Below are positions 11,987 through 32,016 of a stretch of DNA of 32,016 nucleotides, in pieces. The stretch's first letter is position 1. Every line of letters starts with the position of its first letter. The stretch spans positions 1-32,016 of the forward strand of contig JAGGVT010000135.1 in assembly GCA_021157815.1 (NCBI GenBank), read 5' to 3'. The DNA is from a bacterium. GTDB lineage: Bacteria > JAJVIF01 > JAGGVT01. The position numbers and the translations under genes were made by a program. The notes beneath the pieces are model-generated. The model was not told the DNA's origin and ran no database searches. It was given only the letters and a program-made list of their open reading frames with translations.

Positions 11987-13807
11987 TCATTGCTCAATGT
12001 TTTTAAGATCAGAAGCCTCGAGTGGCTCCATGACCAGTTTGAAATCTCGAACGATGAATTTTACACCTTTATATTCCTGCTTGACAGCCAGTTTGAATCG
12101 GTTGATATGAACAAAAACGTTTGGGTAAACAGTGCCAACGACACAAACATACTGATCCGATGCAACAACGGATTCTACAAAATCGGGGTCAATCTCCCGG
12201 ATGCTGTTTATAATTTCTCCCTTCCGCAATTCAAGTATTCCTTTTGAATCTTGAGCATTTTCATCATGCATTTCGTTACATTTCTGTGTTAGCTGATCAA
12301 TCTCGATTTCTATCTCAGATAGCTGTTTAATCAACTGGTCCATCATGCTGGTTTGTTCTTCAGTCAGTTTATCTGTTTTATCATGTAATGGGTTAATATA
12401 AACCTCGGTTCTGGGGGCTGACAGATTTCCGAGCCGGTTTGCCATAACATCTTTCTCGGCTGTTACTGAGCCTCCAGTAATGTATCCCTTTTTGCCAAGA
12501 GCTCTTACTGACTTTTTGGATTTGATATTGCAGTGATATGCATAATCCGTGATTACAACGTCACCATCAGCTTCGACAGTAACGCCTTCCATGAATTGCG
12601 CATGAACATTGCCGCCAGCTTTAAGATAAGCGTTTTGCTCCGCTCGAATTCCTCGATTGATTTGGATATTGCCTTCTGCCTCCAGATGAGCTGATTCACA
12701 TGTTTCATTGATGAAAATATCACCCTTTGCGATGATTTCGAAACCACTATCGACCTTTCCATTAATTGTAACATCACCGGCAAAATTGATGTTACCGGTT
12801 TCAAGGCCGACATCACCCTTGATATTTAGAACCGGCTCAATGCTTACTTGTCCGCCTATACTTTGTGGGATACCAGAAATTGTTGCAATCAGGTTGTTGG
12901 GATTCTTCGAGTCGATAATTGTGTTTTTTCCTACGGGTAGGATGGCTTCTTTTCCATGATTTTGTTTGATTTTTTTGCCTTTTACGTTATATCCAGGCGC
13001 TCCTTCACTTGGTGCAATCAGTTCGCAAAGAGTGTCGCCTTTCTCCACGCTTTCAAATATGCCAAGAGAATGGAAATCAGCGCGCCCCTTGTCGTCAATT
13101 TGAGGGCCATGTTTACTTTTTTGGGCGTCGAAATGGAATATTACAGTGCCCGGTTCACCATCGATTTGTGTAACTCCACGCGCAATTATTATGGGTTCCG
13201 CGCCATAACTTCCCTTGACAATTTCAGGAATAATATTTTCGCGAATCCCCTGAACAATACCAGCTTTCTTAAGCGCCATCATTATGTCCTCTTCATGCAA
13301 ATGCTGGTTCTCATCAGTTATATTAACCATGATGCTGGCTTCCATGCAGTCAGGAGTAAGGGTAATCTCAATATCCGGAAGTGTGCGAGTTCCCACACAA
13401 AACGAATAGTCTTTTGTTTCGTTTTTCTGGTGTCTGATTGCCTTCTCAATCGCTTTCATGTCAGGCGAGACATCGGAATAATTATCATATTGCAACTGCA
13501 TCAGAATATCCATTTTTGTGAGTGGGTTTTCTGAACCTTCCGGAATGATAGTTGCGATTACTTTGCTCGAGTCCTTTTCTGATAGTTTAAAAATGATGGA
13601 ATCGTCATGTTTTTGCGGAAGTATGCTTGAAACACGAAATAACCCGGATTCAGTATCCTTGAGCATCTCAGTGAAATCAGATTCATTGAAATCACTGGCG
13701 CCAAGTTCATCCAGTGATTCCTTAAGATCATCAAGGAAATCCTGGTCAGCCTGAGGGTTTTCGATATACAGGCCATCTTCCCGTATTAGTATTTTTACTG
13801 CCGCCAT
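11987..13807 (-). CDS. FapA/DUF342-family protein, paralogue 1
   Basis: 606 residues from ATG 13807, preceded by GAGAGG at good spacing; an upstream in-frame ATG at 13822 lacks a site, and alignment with paralogue 2 also supports 13807. The N-terminal half (to about 250) is the FapA-type domain ending in VIFHFDAQKSKHGPQID. Residues about 255-460 form a right-handed beta-helix-like region rich in short repeats (GDVGLETGNINFAGDVTING, GDIFINE, GNVHAQFMEGVTVEADGDV). A coiled coil follows (about 480-540) and a conserved tail. The family is named after a flagellar assembly protein but is common in non-flagellated bacteria; polymerisation like bactofilins is a reasonable guess. The gene follows paralogue 2 on the same strand, separated by a composite repeat. 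Confidence 0.85.
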   Translation of the reverse strand: MAAVKILIREDGLYIENPQADQDFLDDLKESLDELGASDFNESDFTEMLKDTESGLFRVSSILPQKHDDSIIFKLSEKDSSKVIATIIPEGSENPLTKMDILMQLQYDNYSDVSPDMKAIEKAIRHQKNETKDYSFCVGTRTLPDIEITLTPDCMEASIMVNITDENQHLHEEDIMMALKKAGIVQGIRENIIPEIVKGSYGAEPIIIARGVTQIDGEPGTVIFHFDAQKSKHGPQIDDKGRADFHSLGIFESVEKGDTLCELIAPSEGAPGYNVKGKKIKQNHGKEAILPVGKNTIIDSKNPNNLIATISGIPQSIGGQVSIEPVLNIKGDVGLETGNINFAGDVTINGKVDSGFEIIAKGDIFINETCESAHLEAEGNIQINRGIRAEQNAYLKAGGNVHAQFMEGVTVEADGDVVITDYAYHCNIKSKKSVRALGKKGYITGGSVTAEKDVMANRLGNLSAPRTEVYINPLHDKTDKLTEEQTSMMDQLIKQLSEIEIEIDQLTQKCNEMHDENAQDSKGILELRKGEIINSIREIDPDFVESVVASDQYVCVVGTVYPNVFVHINRFKLAVKQEYKGVKFIVRDFKLVMEPLEASDLKNIEQ

Positions 13808-14015
13808 ATAGCAGCCTCTCAATTACCATAGTATTAATTCAGCAACAATCCCCTTTTTCTGCCAAGACTAATGGAACGCTTTATTTACCGTGATAAAAAA
13901 ACGCTCCCGTATTATTAGTCTTTCATAAAGATTCCTGATAGCTCAATATTAATATCGTTGTTGTGAAGTGTTTTTTGCTTTATGATAATTACTATCCGGG
14001 AAAATTCGAACGAAA

Positions 14016-14501: not shown

Positions 14502-16322
14502 TCATCGAGTAATGTCTTTGATATGAGAATTATCGAATGATTCCATGACTACTCTGTGTTTTCGTGCGAAGAATCTTACACCGTCAAATTCCTGTTTGAT
14601 TGTCATTTTGTGTTGGTTAATCTGGATATGAACATTGGGATGAACGACGCCAAGGACACCAATATACTGTTCAGACGCAAGAGCTGGATCAATAAATCCC
14701 GGATCGATTTGTCGGATTATTTTAACTGCCTCAACTTTCTGCCATTCAGCCTTTTCTTTTGCCGCCAGAGATTTTTCATCTGCTATTTCATCATATATCT
14801 CAGTTAACCGGTCAATCTCGATTTGTATTTCAGATAATTTATTAATCCACTTCTCCATCTTGTTGATCTGATTTTCAGTCAATTGAACAATTTCTTCGGA
14901 TGATGGGCTAACATAAATCTCGGTCCTGGGTGCTGACAGGCTTCCGAGTCGTTTTGTTATAATGTTTTTCTCAACTGTTACTGAGCCTCCAGCAATGTAG
15001 CCTTTTTTGCCAAGGACCCTGACTGAGTTTTTGGATTTGATATGGCAATGATAGGCATACTCCATGATTACAACTTCACCACCGGCTTCGATGGTAACTC
15101 CTTCCAGGAAAAGAGCGTGAACATTGCCGCCAGCTTTAAGAAATGCGTTTTTATCCGCTCGAATCCCACGGTTGATAAAGATATCGCCCTCTGTCTCCAG
15201 GTAAAGTGATTCAGATGTGTCATGGATATAAATATCATCCTTTGCGACGATTTTGAAACCATCATTGACCATTCCATTTACTCTAACAGCACCGACAAAA
15301 TCGATATCTCCTGTTTCAAGGCCTACATCGCCCTCGATATTAAGAATCGGCTCAACGCTGACTTGTCCATCCAGGTATTTGGGGATACCCGCAATCGTTG
15401 CAATCAGGAGGTTGGGATTATCCGGGTCTATCATTGTGTTTTTTCCACTGGGCAGGGAGGCTTCTTTTCCCAAATTTGGTTCAGTTTCATTGCCTTTTAT
15501 GTCATAACCTGGTATTCCCCTACCAGGTGAAATCAGTTCGCAAAGGATATCTCCCTTTTCAATACTTTCAAATATGCCCAGATGATGGAAATCAGCTCGT
15601 CCTTTAGTATCAATTTGAGGCCCACGTTTTTTCTTTTGGGCGTCGAAATGAAACATGACACTGCCAGGTTCACCATCGATAGATTCAATTCCTCGCGCGA
15701 TAACTTCAGGCTCCGGGCATTCATTTGCCTTGACAATTTCGTTGATGATATTTTTACGAATCCCCTGAACAACGCCAGCTTCCTTCAGAGTCATCATTAT
15801 GTCCTCTTCGTACACACGCTGGTTTTCGTGCGAGAATTGAACCAGGATGTTGGCCTCCATGTTATCAGGAGAAAGGAAAATCTCAATATACGGAAGATTG
15901 CGGATTCCTGCAATAAACGTGTAGATTTCAGTCTCGTGTCCCTGCTGTTCGATTGCATCCTCAATTGCTCTAATATCAGGTGTGACATCCTGAAAATTAT
16001 CGTATTCCAACTGAACCAGGATATCCAATTTCGAGAATGGTTTGCTTAAACCGCTTGGAATGATTGTCGCGACTATCTTGCGCGAATCTTCTTGTGATGG
16101 TTTAAACTGTATGGCATTGTTATGTTCTTGAGCATGTTTGCTTGATACACGAATAAAGCCGGATTCAGTATCCTTAAGCATCTCAACAAAATCAGGTTCA
16201 TTGAAATCACTGACACCAAGCTCATCCAACGACTCCTTCAGATCATCAATGTACTTCCGGTCAGCCTGAGGGTTTTCGACGTATAATCCATCTTTCTTGA
16301 TTAGTATTTGAACAGCCGACAT
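14502..16322 (-). CDS. FapA/DUF342-family protein, paralogue 2
   Basis: 606 residues with the same architecture as paralogue 1: N-terminal FapA-type domain, beta-helix repeats (GDVGLETGDIDFVGAVRVNG, GDIFINRGIRADKN), a coiled coil around 480-545 and a conserved C-terminal tail. The first 60 residues are roughly 70% identical between the two by eye, so they are an old tandem duplication. GAGG lies 9 bases before the ATG. It begins 9 bp after the mtaB stop codon and so probably belongs to an rlmN-mtaB-fapA transcript. Function is inferred only from the family: a possible self-assembling scaffold or envelope-associated regulator. Confidence 0.85.
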   Translation of the reverse strand: MSAVQILIKKDGLYVENPQADRKYIDDLKESLDELGVSDFNEPDFVEMLKDTESGFIRVSSKHAQEHNNAIQFKPSQEDSRKIVATIIPSGLSKPFSKLDILVQLEYDNFQDVTPDIRAIEDAIEQQGHETEIYTFIAGIRNLPYIEIFLSPDNMEANILVQFSHENQRVYEEDIMMTLKEAGVVQGIRKNIINEIVKANECPEPEVIARGIESIDGEPGSVMFHFDAQKKKRGPQIDTKGRADFHHLGIFESIEKGDILCELISPGRGIPGYDIKGNETEPNLGKEASLPSGKNTMIDPDNPNLLIATIAGIPKYLDGQVSVEPILNIEGDVGLETGDIDFVGAVRVNGMVNDGFKIVAKDDIYIHDTSESLYLETEGDIFINRGIRADKNAFLKAGGNVHALFLEGVTIEAGGEVVIMEYAYHCHIKSKNSVRVLGKKGYIAGGSVTVEKNIITKRLGSLSAPRTEIYVSPSSEEIVQLTENQINKMEKWINKLSEIQIEIDRLTEIYDEIADEKSLAAKEKAEWQKVEAVKIIRQIDPGFIDPALASEQYIGVLGVVHPNVHIQINQHKMTIKQEFDGVRFFARKHRVVMESFDNSHIKDITR

Positions 16323-20743: not shown

Positions 20744-23152
20744 TTATTCCCAGTTAACCGGTTCCTGGTGAACGGAGAAGTATTCGTTCCCGTTTACGCT
20801 GCCATGCACCACTCGAAGAACATCATTAATTTGGTCAATCGACATGCATTGACACCCATGTTCCCGTATCGAGTAACGCGGATTTGACAGGCGTGAGTCA
20901 ATCCTGGTAAGGAAAAAACTGTCAATCCCGGAAATGTTTTCATTTCCTCCTCCGACGATCATCTGGCAATCCTGCGGACCAAATAGAATATCCGCTATAT
21001 AGTCGTAATTATCTATCGTGATGTCAGCAAGACCATTGTGAGGACCAGCCAGAACCCCATGCCATGGGTTGGGACTGCCATCATAGGTTGGATAGTATGT
21101 GCCATTGCACTCAATCCTGTAGAGACTGCCATTAGGGTCGTGATCGGTGAGAATGTAGAATGATTTATTGTGGAAATTAATCACAAAATCAAAAATCTCA
21201 CCCTGAAATGCAGAGTCGCTTGGTGGCGGAGGAAAAGCTGTTATCAGGTCGAAACCATAGGATAAATCCTCGTTATAGTTTTCTCCCGCCACGAATTTAT
21301 GCATATAATTGTCGCTGTCGATTACCCAGACATCATCATTTGGGTCTGTATCGATAGCGATAACTTTTTTTCCGTTTGTGTCAGTTGGATCAAGATCAAT
21401 GTCCGCCAAAATTTCCGATGTGTATGGGTAGCACAACCATATATGGAAAGTGTCTGTGGCGAACGCGTTCCTATTCTGAACTGTGACAACATCACCGGCA
21501 AATGACAGGTTACTGCCGGACCATGCGAGTCGATTTTGGGAATCGACATCAATCGATGAAACTCTGTAACCGGGTTCGCCTGTTCTAAAAGGCAGAAATC
21601 CGCCTGAGCCCGAATCCCACGCGACCCCGAGAATTCCACTTTGTTCGAGCGCGAATCTATCCTCTCCGGGATATGCCGTTGTGCCGTAATCGATATCGAT
21701 TATATTGGCGGGTGAGCCGCCGACTCCGACAACCGTGTCATCGGGGCGTTGTGTCGCACCAAATGGCTGAGAGTAAGTACAGCCGGACCAGTCGATTGGT
21801 GATGGAGGGCATCCGATTGTTCCAGTCTGGCGAATTTCAATTGGGATTATCTGATATGCTGTGTAGTCCGTGATATCCGGACCCCTGGTTGGAAAATCAT
21901 CGCCTTCAATGGGTTGAATCGGGAATGGTCCTCCCAGCCCCTCAAGGTCATCCCTGACTGCGATAAGCCCGTAGTACATGCCGGATTGAAGAGGTCCAGC
22001 CTCGATATTTCCAGGGCCTCCAAATTGGAAAACATAAGGCGCCGCGTCAGTTCCATTGCCGCCGGGTTCAGCCTGAAGCCGCGATTTTACCTCGAAGAAT
22101 CCAAAATCAGGGCAGCTTATTTCAACCTGATCGACATCGCTTTTTTCCTTCAAGCCAAGAAGGTTATTCGAATCAGGAAAATTCTCATCTCGATTACGCT
22201 GCGCCTGCCAGTCCTTGACATAAACCCGAACACACGCTGATGAGTTTACCTGTCCCTCCTCAAGAGAATCGTTATATGTTTCAGCGATAACCTGCCATGC
22301 TTCTTTCCTGTTGAATTCAGGAAGATAATATTCAGGCTCATCCCTTGTGAATCTGGTCGCGGATTGCCCATAACTGGCATCAACAATGAATGTGAACGAA
22401 AATATCTCTTCCGGCGGTGTGTTGAAAACGTAGGTTTGTGTATCCCAGTAGGAATTGACTGCCATTACATTATGGCCTTCCGGCTGGTATGGATCAAACG
22501 AGCCGGATGTCGGTTCGAGAAAGAAATTTTTGAATGGATTCAGGTTTCCGGGGTATTCCAGCGGCGGATCGAAATAGCTTCCAAGTGTTGAATCATCGAA
22601 ATGAGTAGTGTAACCATCAGCGTTTAACAGGAAATCCGGATCAGTCTGAATAATCTCGTTTGCGTTTCCATCGCCGTCAACATCCGACATAATCATTCCA
22701 AAGCTAACACCGCCGGGATGAAGCAGAATCCCGCGGACATCAAAAACGTGCAGGTCAGGCCGTGCGAGAAGGTCGGTGAAAGGATGGCGGATTTTGAAAT
22801 AAACTTTGATATTATGCTCGGGCGTCAACGCAATGCCGCTTAGTTTCAAACAATCCGTGCAGGGGATTTTGTTCATGAATTCGGTGATGTGCGAATCGAA
22901 TGAATCGCCGATTGCGCCGGCTTGCCTTAACGGTAAAACCTCACCGGTTAGCGTTTCAGGATTTATAACAACACTGAAGGAGCCGATGATGCCTTCGTAT
23001 GTAATGGCGCCTGTGCGCGCGACTGGCAGAAAATCCGCGGAGTCATTATTCGAAAACAAAGGTGAATTGTCAGCAGTTACAGCGTTTGTGCCACTGCAAC
23101 CTGCTCCGATAAGAGCATAAATTAATATGAGAAACAAAACGGTACGATACAT
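20744..23152 (-). CDS. Large secreted lipoprotein, unknown function
   Basis: 802 residues from ATG 23152, preceded by GGAGG at ideal spacing; the longer frame to 23191 adds 13 residues with no site. Signal peptide MYRTVLFLILIYALIGAGC with probable lipidation at C19. The first part has DVRGILLHPGG and SDVDGDGNANEI. A middle region is rich in aromatic residues and prolines and includes YYGLIAVRDDLEGLGGPF. The last third has short blade-like stretches (VIAIDTDPNDDVWVIDS, ITIDNYDYIADILFG) that suggest a beta-propeller of TolB/NHL type. Aspartate-rich loops such as DVDGDGNAN may bind calcium. I do not recognise a characterised relative. It probably sits on the outer face of the envelope. Confidence 0.75.
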   Translation of the reverse strand: MYRTVLFLILIYALIGAGCSGTNAVTADNSPLFSNNDSADFLPVARTGAITYEGIIGSFSVVINPETLTGEVLPLRQAGAIGDSFDSHITEFMNKIPCTDCLKLSGIALTPEHNIKVYFKIRHPFTDLLARPDLHVFDVRGILLHPGGVSFGMIMSDVDGDGNANEIIQTDPDFLLNADGYTTHFDDSTLGSYFDPPLEYPGNLNPFKNFFLEPTSGSFDPYQPEGHNVMAVNSYWDTQTYVFNTPPEEIFSFTFIVDASYGQSATRFTRDEPEYYLPEFNRKEAWQVIAETYNDSLEEGQVNSSACVRVYVKDWQAQRNRDENFPDSNNLLGLKEKSDVDQVEISCPDFGFFEVKSRLQAEPGGNGTDAAPYVFQFGGPGNIEAGPLQSGMYYGLIAVRDDLEGLGGPFPIQPIEGDDFPTRGPDITDYTAYQIIPIEIRQTGTIGCPPSPIDWSGCTYSQPFGATQRPDDTVVGVGGSPANIIDIDYGTTAYPGEDRFALEQSGILGVAWDSGSGGFLPFRTGEPGYRVSSIDVDSQNRLAWSGSNLSFAGDVVTVQNRNAFATDTFHIWLCYPYTSEILADIDLDPTDTNGKKVIAIDTDPNDDVWVIDSDNYMHKFVAGENYNEDLSYGFDLITAFPPPPSDSAFQGEIFDFVINFHNKSFYILTDHDPNGSLYRIECNGTYYPTYDGSPNPWHGVLAGPHNGLADITIDNYDYIADILFGPQDCQMIVGGGNENISGIDSFFLTRIDSRLSNPRYSIREHGCQCMSIDQINDVLRVVHGSVNGNEYFSVHQEPVNWE

Positions 23153-23434
23153 TAATTTTACCTCCACATATCCAAAAGGTATATTCCGCAACCGCCAATA
23201 ATGATATGAAAAGCATGATATTTTAAACAGACCGGCTGCATTACAATCGCCAAGTGGAAATCCCGATTAATTACACACGACATAATCATCATCTTTTAGT
23301 TAAGAATGTTTTACTAAAAATGATTCATTTTTATTGTACCACAAAAGATTCAATCAGATTAAGAGATGGAGTTGATTAAAATTCGCGTATGAGAATTTTC
23401 GCAGGAGCTCGGTATTTCCCTGAAGCATCCAGCT
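23153..23434. other. Intergenic region, no gene seen
   Basis: AT-rich DNA between the large lipoprotein gene and nrdJ. It should contain the lipoprotein promoter; TTGTAA at about 23245-23250 on the minus strand is one weak -35 candidate. No repeat or RNA gene is recognised. Confidence 0.5.
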
Positions 23435-27568: not shown

Positions 27569-27570
27569 AA

Positions 27571-27674
27571 CTTACTAACCTACTAACCTGCTAACTTACT
27601 AACCTGCTAACTTAATAACCTGTTAACTTACTAACCTGCTAACTTACTAACCTGCTAACCTGCTAACTTACTAA
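27571..27674. repeat. 8-bp tandem satellite (13 units)
   Basis: Thirteen consecutive 8-bp units alternating CTTACTAA and CCTGCTAA with few changes. It ends 6 bp before the carboxyltransferase stop codon. It has stop codons (TAA) in one plus frame per unit and is non-coding. Confidence 0.9.
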
Positions 27675-27680
27675 CCTCTT

Positions 27681-29360: not shown

Positions 29361-29467
29361 AATAAAAAACACCCCGCTAGGGAGGTGTCGTTGCGATACC
29401 TCAGTATCACTGCTTTCGGGACTTGACGTCCCTTACTGTGACTTGACTAGAAACACCGCATAAGTAC
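29361..29467 (-). ncRNA. Candidate tracrRNA for the adjacent Cas9
   Basis: On the minus strand, a transcript starting near 29467 would hold in order: an anti-repeat (about 29433-29460, containing CTAGTCAAGTCACAGT), then AAGG and a GGGAC-GTCAA-GTCCC hairpin (29418-29432), a 5-bp GATAC-TGAG-GTATC hairpin (29395-29408), and a terminator stem ACACCTC…GGGGTGT (29369-29388) followed by TTTTTT. The order of anti-repeat, AAGG, short hairpins and terminator is that of type II-C tracrRNAs, and the position next to cas9 is typical. About 105 nt. No repeat is in the window to prove the pairing. Confidence 0.72.
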
Positions 29468-29473
29468 AATATA

Positions 29474-29479
29474 TATAAT
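29474..29479 (+). promoter_or_regulatory. Candidate cas9 -10 box
   Basis: Consensus TATAAT 43 bp before the cas9 start. The region 16-18 bp upstream has no good -35 box; TTGACT at 29443-29448 is 25 bp away, too far. It overlaps the -10 box of the opposite tracrRNA promoter. Confidence 0.45.
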
Positions 29480-29503
29480 CTCATATTATGCCGCATTTGT
29501 CAA
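29475..29503 (-). promoter_or_regulatory. Promoter of the candidate tracrRNA
   Basis: On the minus strand: consensus TTGACA (29498-29503), 17-bp spacer, GATTAT (29475-29480). Transcription would begin about 29466-29469, just before the anti-repeat. Confidence 0.7.
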
Positions 29504-29521: not shown

Positions 29522-32016
29522 ATGAGTAATGAAAATTTGAAGAAGAAGGTTGTTCTTGGTCTCGATGTAGGTTCCAGTTCTCTTGGCTGGGTTTTGATGA
29601 ACGAAGAGGAAGTATTGGATATTGGCTCCCGTATTTTCGAAGCCGGCATGGATGGCAATATCGAAAAAGGTACTGATGAATCCTACAATGTTCAACGTCG
29701 TGATGCCAGATTGACACGACGAAGACTGCAACGACGAACCAGGCGATTAATCAAACTGGCTTTGTATTTACAGAGAGTGGATCTATTACCAGAAAGTAAT
29801 ATAGAGGATTCTAAAATCAGGCATGAGTTTTTCAACACGCTTGATCGTTCGTTATCTGAAAAATACAACATGCCTCATGCGCTTCCGTATCTCCTTCGTG
29901 CGAAAGCGCTGGATGAAAAACTAACTCAACATGAACTCGGACGTGTGCTCTATCACATCTGCCAGAGACGCGGATTCCTGAGCAATCGCAAATCTCCAAT
30001 CAAGGATAAAGAAGAGCATGGCAAAGTTAAAGATGGCATTAAATCTCTTCGTGAAAAGCTAAGCGAGAATGATTCAAAAACTCTTGGAGAGTATTTCTCT
30101 AAGTTTGATCCGGATGACCGCATCCGAACTCAATACACCGCGCGCGATATGTATGATGACGAGTTCAATCTAATCTGGGATAAGCAGGCGGAATTTTATC
30201 CTGATATTCTTACTGATGATTTCAAGGACAAAATCTATCATGTGATATTTGACCAGCGACCGATTAAGTTTAAGAAAAGCACAATCGGTATGTGTGAACT
30301 TGAAAAGACCAAACGGCGCGCTCCCGCGCTTCTTCTGGATGCCCAACGATTCCGACTTATTCACATGATTAACGGAACTAAAATCTACGTGGACAATGTC
30401 GAGCGTGAATTGACTGATGAAGAGCGTGAAACTCTAATAAACAAACTCGAAACAGAAGGCGACCTTGCGTTCACAAAAGCTAAAAAGTTATTGGGCTTAA
30501 AAATGAAGAAAGATAAATTCAACTGGGAGGGCGGACCTGAAAAACGTTTCATCGGAAACAGGACATCCGCCGCACTGATTGAAATCTTTGGTGAGGAAAA
30601 ATGGAACTTATTATCTAAAGTGATGAAGGATCAAGTTGTTGAGGATATTCATTCAATTCAAAAGAATGAAACACTCCTTAAAAGAGGCTTGAACAAATGG
30701 GAATTAAGTGAGGAAAAAGCAATCGAACTTTCCGAGATTGCGCTGGAACCAGAATATCTCAAACTTTCAAGAGCTGCAATCGCAAAACTTCTTCCAAGGA
30801 TGGAAAAAGGCGAACACTATTCAACGCTCGTTAAGGAATTCTACGGCGACACCAAGGATGTCGAGGAACATGATATTCTCCCGCCTCTTTTTCAGGTTGA
30901 GAAATATATCAGTAATCCCGCTGTTATTCGTTCGCTTACTGAATTACGAAAAGTGGTGAATACAGTAATACGCGAACATGGCAAGCCGGATGAAATACAT
31001 ATTGAGTTCGCTCGTGAGCTGAAGCAAGGCAAAAAAAGCCGGCAGGCTGTTACAAAAAGAATCAGCGAAAATGAACAGTCTCGTTCAAAAGCGGCAAAAC
31101 GTATCATTGATGAATTGAAGATTCAGAACCCAACGCGAACAGATATCCTCAAAGTCCAGCTGGCGGAAGAATGTAATTGGGAATGTCCTTATACCGGACG
31201 ATCATTCAGCATCGGTGATTTGTTCAAGCCAACTCCGCAATTCGATATCGAGCACATCATTCCTTTCTCACGATGCCTCGACAATTCCTATCTCAACAAA
31301 ACGCTCTGCTGGTCGGAGGAAAACAAGAACGTTAAAAGGAACATGACTCCTTTCGAGGCATATTCAAATACTGATAAATGGGACGAAATTATTCAACGTG
31401 TGAAACGATTCAAAGGTGATGTCGCGCGTTTCAAACTTGCTCGATTCATGATGGATTCAAAAGGTGTAAAAGAAAAATTCGAGGATTTCTCCGCGCGGCA
31501 GCTTAACGACACCAGCTATGTCGCGAAACTCTCACAGCAATATCTACGGTTGCTTTATGGCAATGAATGGAGAAAACATATTGTTCCAACAAGTGGCGGT
31601 GTAACTTCTTTTCTTAGAAATGTCTGGGGGCTTAATTCAATTCTGCAGGATGGCGGCCCAAAAAAGGAACGCACAGACCATCGCCACCATGCTGTCGATG
31701 CGGTTGTAATCGCAATGACAAACCGCCGTACTCTCCAGATGCTCGCTTATGCAAACTCGCGTCGCATTAAACCGGAAAGGCTTTTCAATGATAAAGAAAT
31801 CAAACCGCCCTGGGAAACTTTCTGGGATGATGTTAAAGAGGCAATTGACGGCATTGTCGTTTCGCACCGCGTGTCAAACAAGGTCAGCGGACAACTGCAT
31901 GAGGAAACATTCTACGGACTCGGGCCAGATGAGGATGGCGACGGCAAGCCCGATTACTACACAATCACACGTCCGCTCACAGCTTTGAAAAAAACTGAGG
32001 TCGATAAAATCGTTGA
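29522..32016 (+). CDS. cas9: Cas9 endonuclease, type II-C-like, 3' end beyond window
   Basis: 831 complete codons, open to the window edge with no stop. ATG 29522 follows AGGAG at 8 nt. RuvC-I: LGLDVGSSSLGWVL with D15. Arginine-rich bridge helix at about 57-80 (RRDARLTRRRLQRRTRR). HICQRRGFLSNRK at 145-157 belongs to the recognition lobe. RuvC-II: IHIEFAREL with E495. HNH: FDIEHIIPFS with D575 and H578, then N601 in SEENKN. RuvC-III: HHAVDAVVIAM with H723 and D726. The WED and PAM-interacting part has begun and is cut off. The spacing matches small type II-C Cas9 proteins such as those of Campylobacter or Neisseria, so a full length near 1000-1100 residues is expected. All catalytic residues are present, so it should cut DNA guided by crRNA and tracrRNA. 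Its neighbour on the left is the divergent tracrRNA candidate; cas1, cas2 and the array should lie to the right. Confidence 0.95.
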   Translation, partial: MSNENLKKKVVLGLDVGSSSLGWVLMNEEEVLDIGSRIFEAGMDGNIEKGTDESYNVQRRDARLTRRRLQRRTRRLIKLALYLQRVDLLPESNIEDSKIRHEFFNTLDRSLSEKYNMPHALPYLLRAKALDEKLTQHELGRVLYHICQRRGFLSNRKSPIKDKEEHGKVKDGIKSLREKLSENDSKTLGEYFSKFDPDDRIRTQYTARDMYDDEFNLIWDKQAEFYPDILTDDFKDKIYHVIFDQRPIKFKKSTIGMCELEKTKRRAPALLLDAQRFRLIHMINGTKIYVDNVERELTDEERETLINKLETEGDLAFTKAKKLLGLKMKKDKFNWEGGPEKRFIGNRTSAALIEIFGEEKWNLLSKVMKDQVVEDIHSIQKNETLLKRGLNKWELSEEKAIELSEIALEPEYLKLSRAAIAKLLPRMEKGEHYSTLVKEFYGDTKDVEEHDILPPLFQVEKYISNPAVIRSLTELRKVVNTVIREHGKPDEIHIEFARELKQGKKSRQAVTKRISENEQSRSKAAKRIIDELKIQNPTRTDILKVQLAEECNWECPYTGRSFSIGDLFKPTPQFDIEHIIPFSRCLDNSYLNKTLCWSEENKNVKRNMTPFEAYSNTDKWDEIIQRVKRFKGDVARFKLARFMMDSKGVKEKFEDFSARQLNDTSYVAKLSQQYLRLLYGNEWRKHIVPTSGGVTSFLRNVWGLNSILQDGGPKKERTDHRHHAVDAVVIAMTNRRTLQMLAYANSRRIKPERLFNDKEIKPPWETFWDDVKEAIDGIVVSHRVSNKVSGQLHEETFYGLGPDEDGDGKPDYYTITRPLTALKKTEVDKIV

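Follow-up and report, generated by a model that had tools for sequence, protein, structure and literature searches.

A probable type II-C CRISPR-Cas locus with a predicted tracrRNA gene, cut by a contig end in a little-sampled bacterium

The window analysed here (32,016 nt) is the whole of contig C43, which belongs to an assembly of 3.2 Mb in 221 contigs that is 90.9% complete. Its right end is occupied by cas9 (29522..32016, plus strand), preceded by a Shine-Dalgarno-like AGGAG and represented by its first 831 codons, which run without a stop from the ATG at 29522 to 32014, i.e. to the end of the contig. The gene was identified by its reading frame and by family and fold matches. In particular, the protein matches the NCBIfam Cas9 family TIGR01865 over residues 11-823 (652 bits, E 2e-195) and contains the Pfam domains RuvC_III, HNH_4 and the Cas9 alpha-helical lobe. 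The visible parts are RuvC-I, the bridge helix, the REC lobe, RuvC-II, HNH and RuvC-III, and they include the hallmarks of Cas9, a three-part RuvC with an inserted HNH and, in addition, a REC lobe. Of about 1,060 residues, 831 are visible, and the contig stops short of nearly the whole WED/PAM-interacting region. The first-pass annotation had described an intact-looking, type II-C-like Cas9 running off the window. The family match and the catalytic positions, all of which are filled, confirm that the protein is a Cas9; it is intact over the visible 831 residues only, the C-terminal rest being beyond the contig end. The frame is indeed open to the last base, and its truncation is an assembly break, not merely the edge of the window, as the window and the contig end together and the assembly holds nothing to the right of 32016.

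By sequence and by fold, this Cas9 is closest to NmeCas9 (Neisseria meningitidis, type II-C), with which it shares the domain order and the catalytic residues; the two are about 28% identical when aligned by fold. NmeCas9 ranked first in a sequence search of the PDB (E 1e-80), and the top matches in both searches were NmeCas9, HpaCas9, GeoCas9 and ThermoCas9; SpCas9 was absent from the sequence matches at E 0.001. For the fold search we used an AlphaFold2 model based on 27 homologues (mean pLDDT 80), in which the placement of the domains is uncertain given the pTM of 0.39. Searched against the PDB, the model retrieved Nme1Cas9 first (E 1.6e-38), followed by ThermoCas9, HpaCas9 and GeoCas9; SaCas9 and SpCas9 ranked further down. 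This agrees with the sequence ranking. The assignment to type II-C, made already in the first-pass annotation, is therefore supported by the closest relatives, by the architecture of their loci, described below, and by the fold comparison, all of which agree. The model of Cas9d (II-D) was also tried and rejected, scoring 166 bits against a cut-off of 375.

The catalytic residues D15, E495, H578, N601, H723 and D726 are found at the positions proposed earlier. Five of them (E495, H578, N601, H723, D726) are invariant across 42 Cas9 sequences, and the position of D15 is occupied by D in 40 of the 42. The proposed HNH residue D575, however, did not hold as the HNH acid. It is conserved, but lies two residues ahead of the position of the 'DH' aspartate: in the alignment with NmeCas9, FDIEH stands over VEIDH, and the residue aligned with the aspartate (equivalent to SpCas9 D839) is E577, giving 'EH' in the window Cas9 versus 'DH' in NmeCas9. 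Across the window and L017-L060, position 577 carries E in 38 of 42 Cas9 sequences and D in three, and hence the glutamate is a trait of the group. E577 may still serve as a metal ligand. We suggest only tentatively, with the balance tilting against it, that the window Cas9 is part of a wide and seemingly little-characterised II-C branch of uncultured bacteria, in which Glu replaces the metal-ligand Asp of HNH and whose PAMs and cutting may differ from those of the tested II-C enzymes.

Directly upstream of cas9, between it and the divergent carboxyltransferase gene, the sequence contains a predicted gene for the tracrRNA partner of this Cas9, which had been overlooked in the first-pass annotation (29361..29469, minus strand, about 109 nt, divergent from cas9). 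It is recognised by a profile of its relatives and by anti-repeats at the same place in them. An nhmmer tracrRNA profile built from 20 relatives, with the window excluded, matched 29469-29360 on the minus strand (E 2.2e-10), its only match on either strand of the window. The same profile matched the same place in relatives outside the training set, e.g. L022, L025, L026, L029, L034, L039, L046 and L057, and anti-repeats were found at this place, upstream of cas9, in about 25 relatives. The putative anti-repeat (29434..29469, minus strand, 36 nt, TTGTACTTATGCGGTGTTTCTAGTCAAGTCACAGTA) is defined by its predicted duplex with the relatives' repeats. With the repeats of G140, L043, L051 and L024 the predicted energies ranged from -35.6 to -43.1 kcal/mol; in the shuffled-repeat control for these four near relatives the energies averaged about -14 kcal/mol and reached -29.1 kcal/mol at best. 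With the repeat of the more distant L042, the energy was -29.4 versus -27.0 kcal/mol for the best shuffle.

The predicted tracrRNA consists of the anti-repeat ATTGTACTTATGCGGTGTTTCTAGTCAAGTCACAGT, then AAGGGACGUCAAGUCCC, a nexus-like hairpin and a terminator hairpin. Its tail has three predicted hairpins (-27.5 kcal/mol), arranged in the same order as in L018, L020, L051 and L052, and the predicted fold of the 139-nt region beats those of 198 out of 200 shuffles. RNAalifold recovered only 6 pairs from the tracrRNA alignment, as the loops are variable, and Rfam yielded a sub-threshold match only, at this same place. The gene is flanked by a candidate promoter (29475..29503, minus strand; TTGACA, 17 nt, TG-extended GATTAT), whose expected start coincides with the first bases of the anti-repeat and whose consensus match of 10/12 is, as a count alone, not unusual for the region. 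It ends in a consensus-matching intrinsic terminator with an 8-pair stem and a T run (29368..29389, minus strand). A possible cas9 promoter, TTGACT-16-TACAAT (29443..29470, plus strand), overlaps the anti-repeat and is proposed from a consensus match only.

A protein scan of genome contigs with the single window protein gave no matches, while a three-row alignment search of the contigs found 34 named loci with Cas9 at 32-49% identity. These come almost wholly from metagenome bins assigned to Planctomycetota, Acidobacteriota, Zixibacteria, Hydrogenedentota, Kiritimatiellota and other phyla. The best Cas9 relatives are those of G140 (50% identity) and G106 (47%). The Cas9 frames of the relatives are mostly 1,000-1,150 codons long and are followed downstream by type II Cas1 (TIGR03639), Cas2 and then the array; for five relatives the cas1 or cas2 families were confirmed, and the array stands close behind. 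Arrays of 36-bp repeats are carried by more than 25 loci of relatives, and an array is present in most relatives with enough flanking sequence. When the repeat was searched for outside the arrays, most of the loci that include an array as well as upstream sequence had their best match immediately before cas9, on the opposite strand. The resulting layout, tracrRNA(-) / cas9-cas1-cas2-array, is standard for type II-C.

In the tree, the window Cas9 falls inside a 35-row clade (SH-aLRT 98) without a supported close neighbour. Most members of the II-C clade of uncultured bacteria (L017-L052), which spans Planctomycetota, Acidobacteriota, Zixibacteria, Hydrogenedentota, Fermentibacterota and others, have Cas9 proteins 38-50% identical to that of the window. 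They have the tracrRNA in the same place and a common repeat family like AGTRTACCTGAGCGGCGATTCCC...CACAGC. The window differs from this clade by ordinary sequence divergence only, the nearest neighbour being at 50%. The unplaced lineage noted in the first-pass annotation fits the data set, which contains only four genomes of this phylum; among these four, G002, of the same class as the window genome, has a far more distant Cas9, and no Cas9 was found in the remaining two. This patchy distribution hints at exchange between lineages.

Two observations concern the surroundings of relatives. In G140, cas9 and the tracrRNA are immediately preceded by a frame (L003:4268-5227, minus strand) that by its translation resembles a tyrosine-recombinase-like integrase, a possible vehicle of transfer. 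The 39.1-kb contig L051 (IMGVR_UViG_3300018080_000328; also L064 and L065), classed as viral, carries a complete relative system of cas9, cas1, cas2, about 60 repeats and a tracrRNA. The system adjoins tape measure, portal and terminase genes, with a helicase/PLD protein and a Type ISP restriction enzyme beyond it, and the contig may represent a prophage beside a host defence island or a CRISPR-carrying phage.

As the contig ends inside cas9, the C-terminus, cas1, cas2 and the array cannot be read here. In the rest of the genome's own assembly we found no cas1, no cas2 above the cut-off and none convincing, no match to the Cas9 C-terminus, and no further copy of the predicted repeat (expected to resemble the anti-repeat in reverse complement, near ACTGTGACTTGACTAGAAACACCGCATAAGTACAAT); neither the window nor the assembly contains a repeat-spacer array. 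In a control, the C-terminal query found the homologues of G106 (E 8e-13) and G015 (E 2e-6) and missed those of G066, G083 and G008, which makes the negative result fair, not absolute. The most economical explanation is that the missing remainder of the locus was left unassembled or unbinned. By analogy with the relatives, it would comprise cas1, cas2 and an array running in the same direction as theirs.

That the missing parts are found nowhere else in the assembly is also what one would expect of a decayed or orphan cas9, broken past 32016 or deprived of its array and adaptation genes and thus a non-immune remnant. We consider this improbable, since all 831 codons are open, every catalytic position is kept, and the tracrRNA retains its promoter and terminator, whereas such parts would decay in a remnant. 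Moreover, the contig simply ends there, and the lack of cas1, cas2, the C-terminus and repeats fits a loss at the contig end of a 91%-complete assembly. The RuvC and HNH domains are also common to IscB and other transposon-borne Cas9-like nucleases that use an omega-RNA. IscB and IS605-associated nucleases, however, are short (under about 600 aa) and have no REC lobe, features not seen here: the window protein has a full REC lobe, its relatives are 1,000-1,150 aa long and adjoin cas1, cas2 and arrays, and a separate tracrRNA with an anti-repeat stands in place of an omega-RNA. We reject an origin of this kind.

The window thus very probably closes with the left-hand part of a type II-C CRISPR-Cas locus of the ordinary sort. 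The locus adds a member to a known family, found in a little-sampled bacterium, and is no new kind of system. If it works as the Cas9 family does, Cas9 would be guided by a crRNA:tracrRNA duplex: transcription of the tracrRNA would run leftward from near 29469, and its 5' anti-repeat would pair with the repeats of an array that lay beyond cas9-cas1-cas2 and fell past the contig end. RNase III, which is needed for duplex processing in most type II systems and is encoded in the same genome (E 1.5e-60), would trim the duplex; the RNP would find a PAM beside a matching protospacer, where HNH and RuvC would cut the two strands.

The placement of tracrRNA and cas9 in the window fits the common published layout (PMC7708072, PMC10278012). 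The type II-C loci of PpCas9 and DfCas9 comprise a cas9 of 1,055-1,079 aa, cas1 and cas2, all of them preceded by the tracrRNA, and the array of the DfCas9 locus is transcribed against the cas genes (PMC7708072). These enzymes come from other organisms and have had their activity and PAM measured, whereas the window Cas9 is known from its sequence. In a survey of type II systems of uncultivated microbes, an upstream tracrRNA (79%) and its reverse orientation (70%) were the most frequent (PMC10278012). The window adds one II-C Cas9 with a defined tracrRNA from a phylum with four genomes in the data set, and its set of repeat, tracrRNA and Cas9 belongs to a clade found across many uncultured phyla. 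The tracrRNA gives a basis for a guide scaffold, and the understanding of CRISPR is unchanged.

Family searches of the window genes confirmed that the neighbours of cas9 are housekeeping genes, as previously described. A 16-bp unit CTAACTTACTAACCTG is repeated in tandem in about 6 copies (27569-27677) in the stretch that separates the genes for shikimate dehydrogenase and the carboxyltransferase. An 815-aa frame between the genes for Hsp70 and the B12-dependent ribonucleotide reductase (20744-23191, minus strand) had no Pfam or NCBIfam match. Finally, two adjacent genes of similar length with the FapA (flagellar assembly protein A) domain (11987-13822 and 14502-16322, minus strand) apparently arose by duplication.
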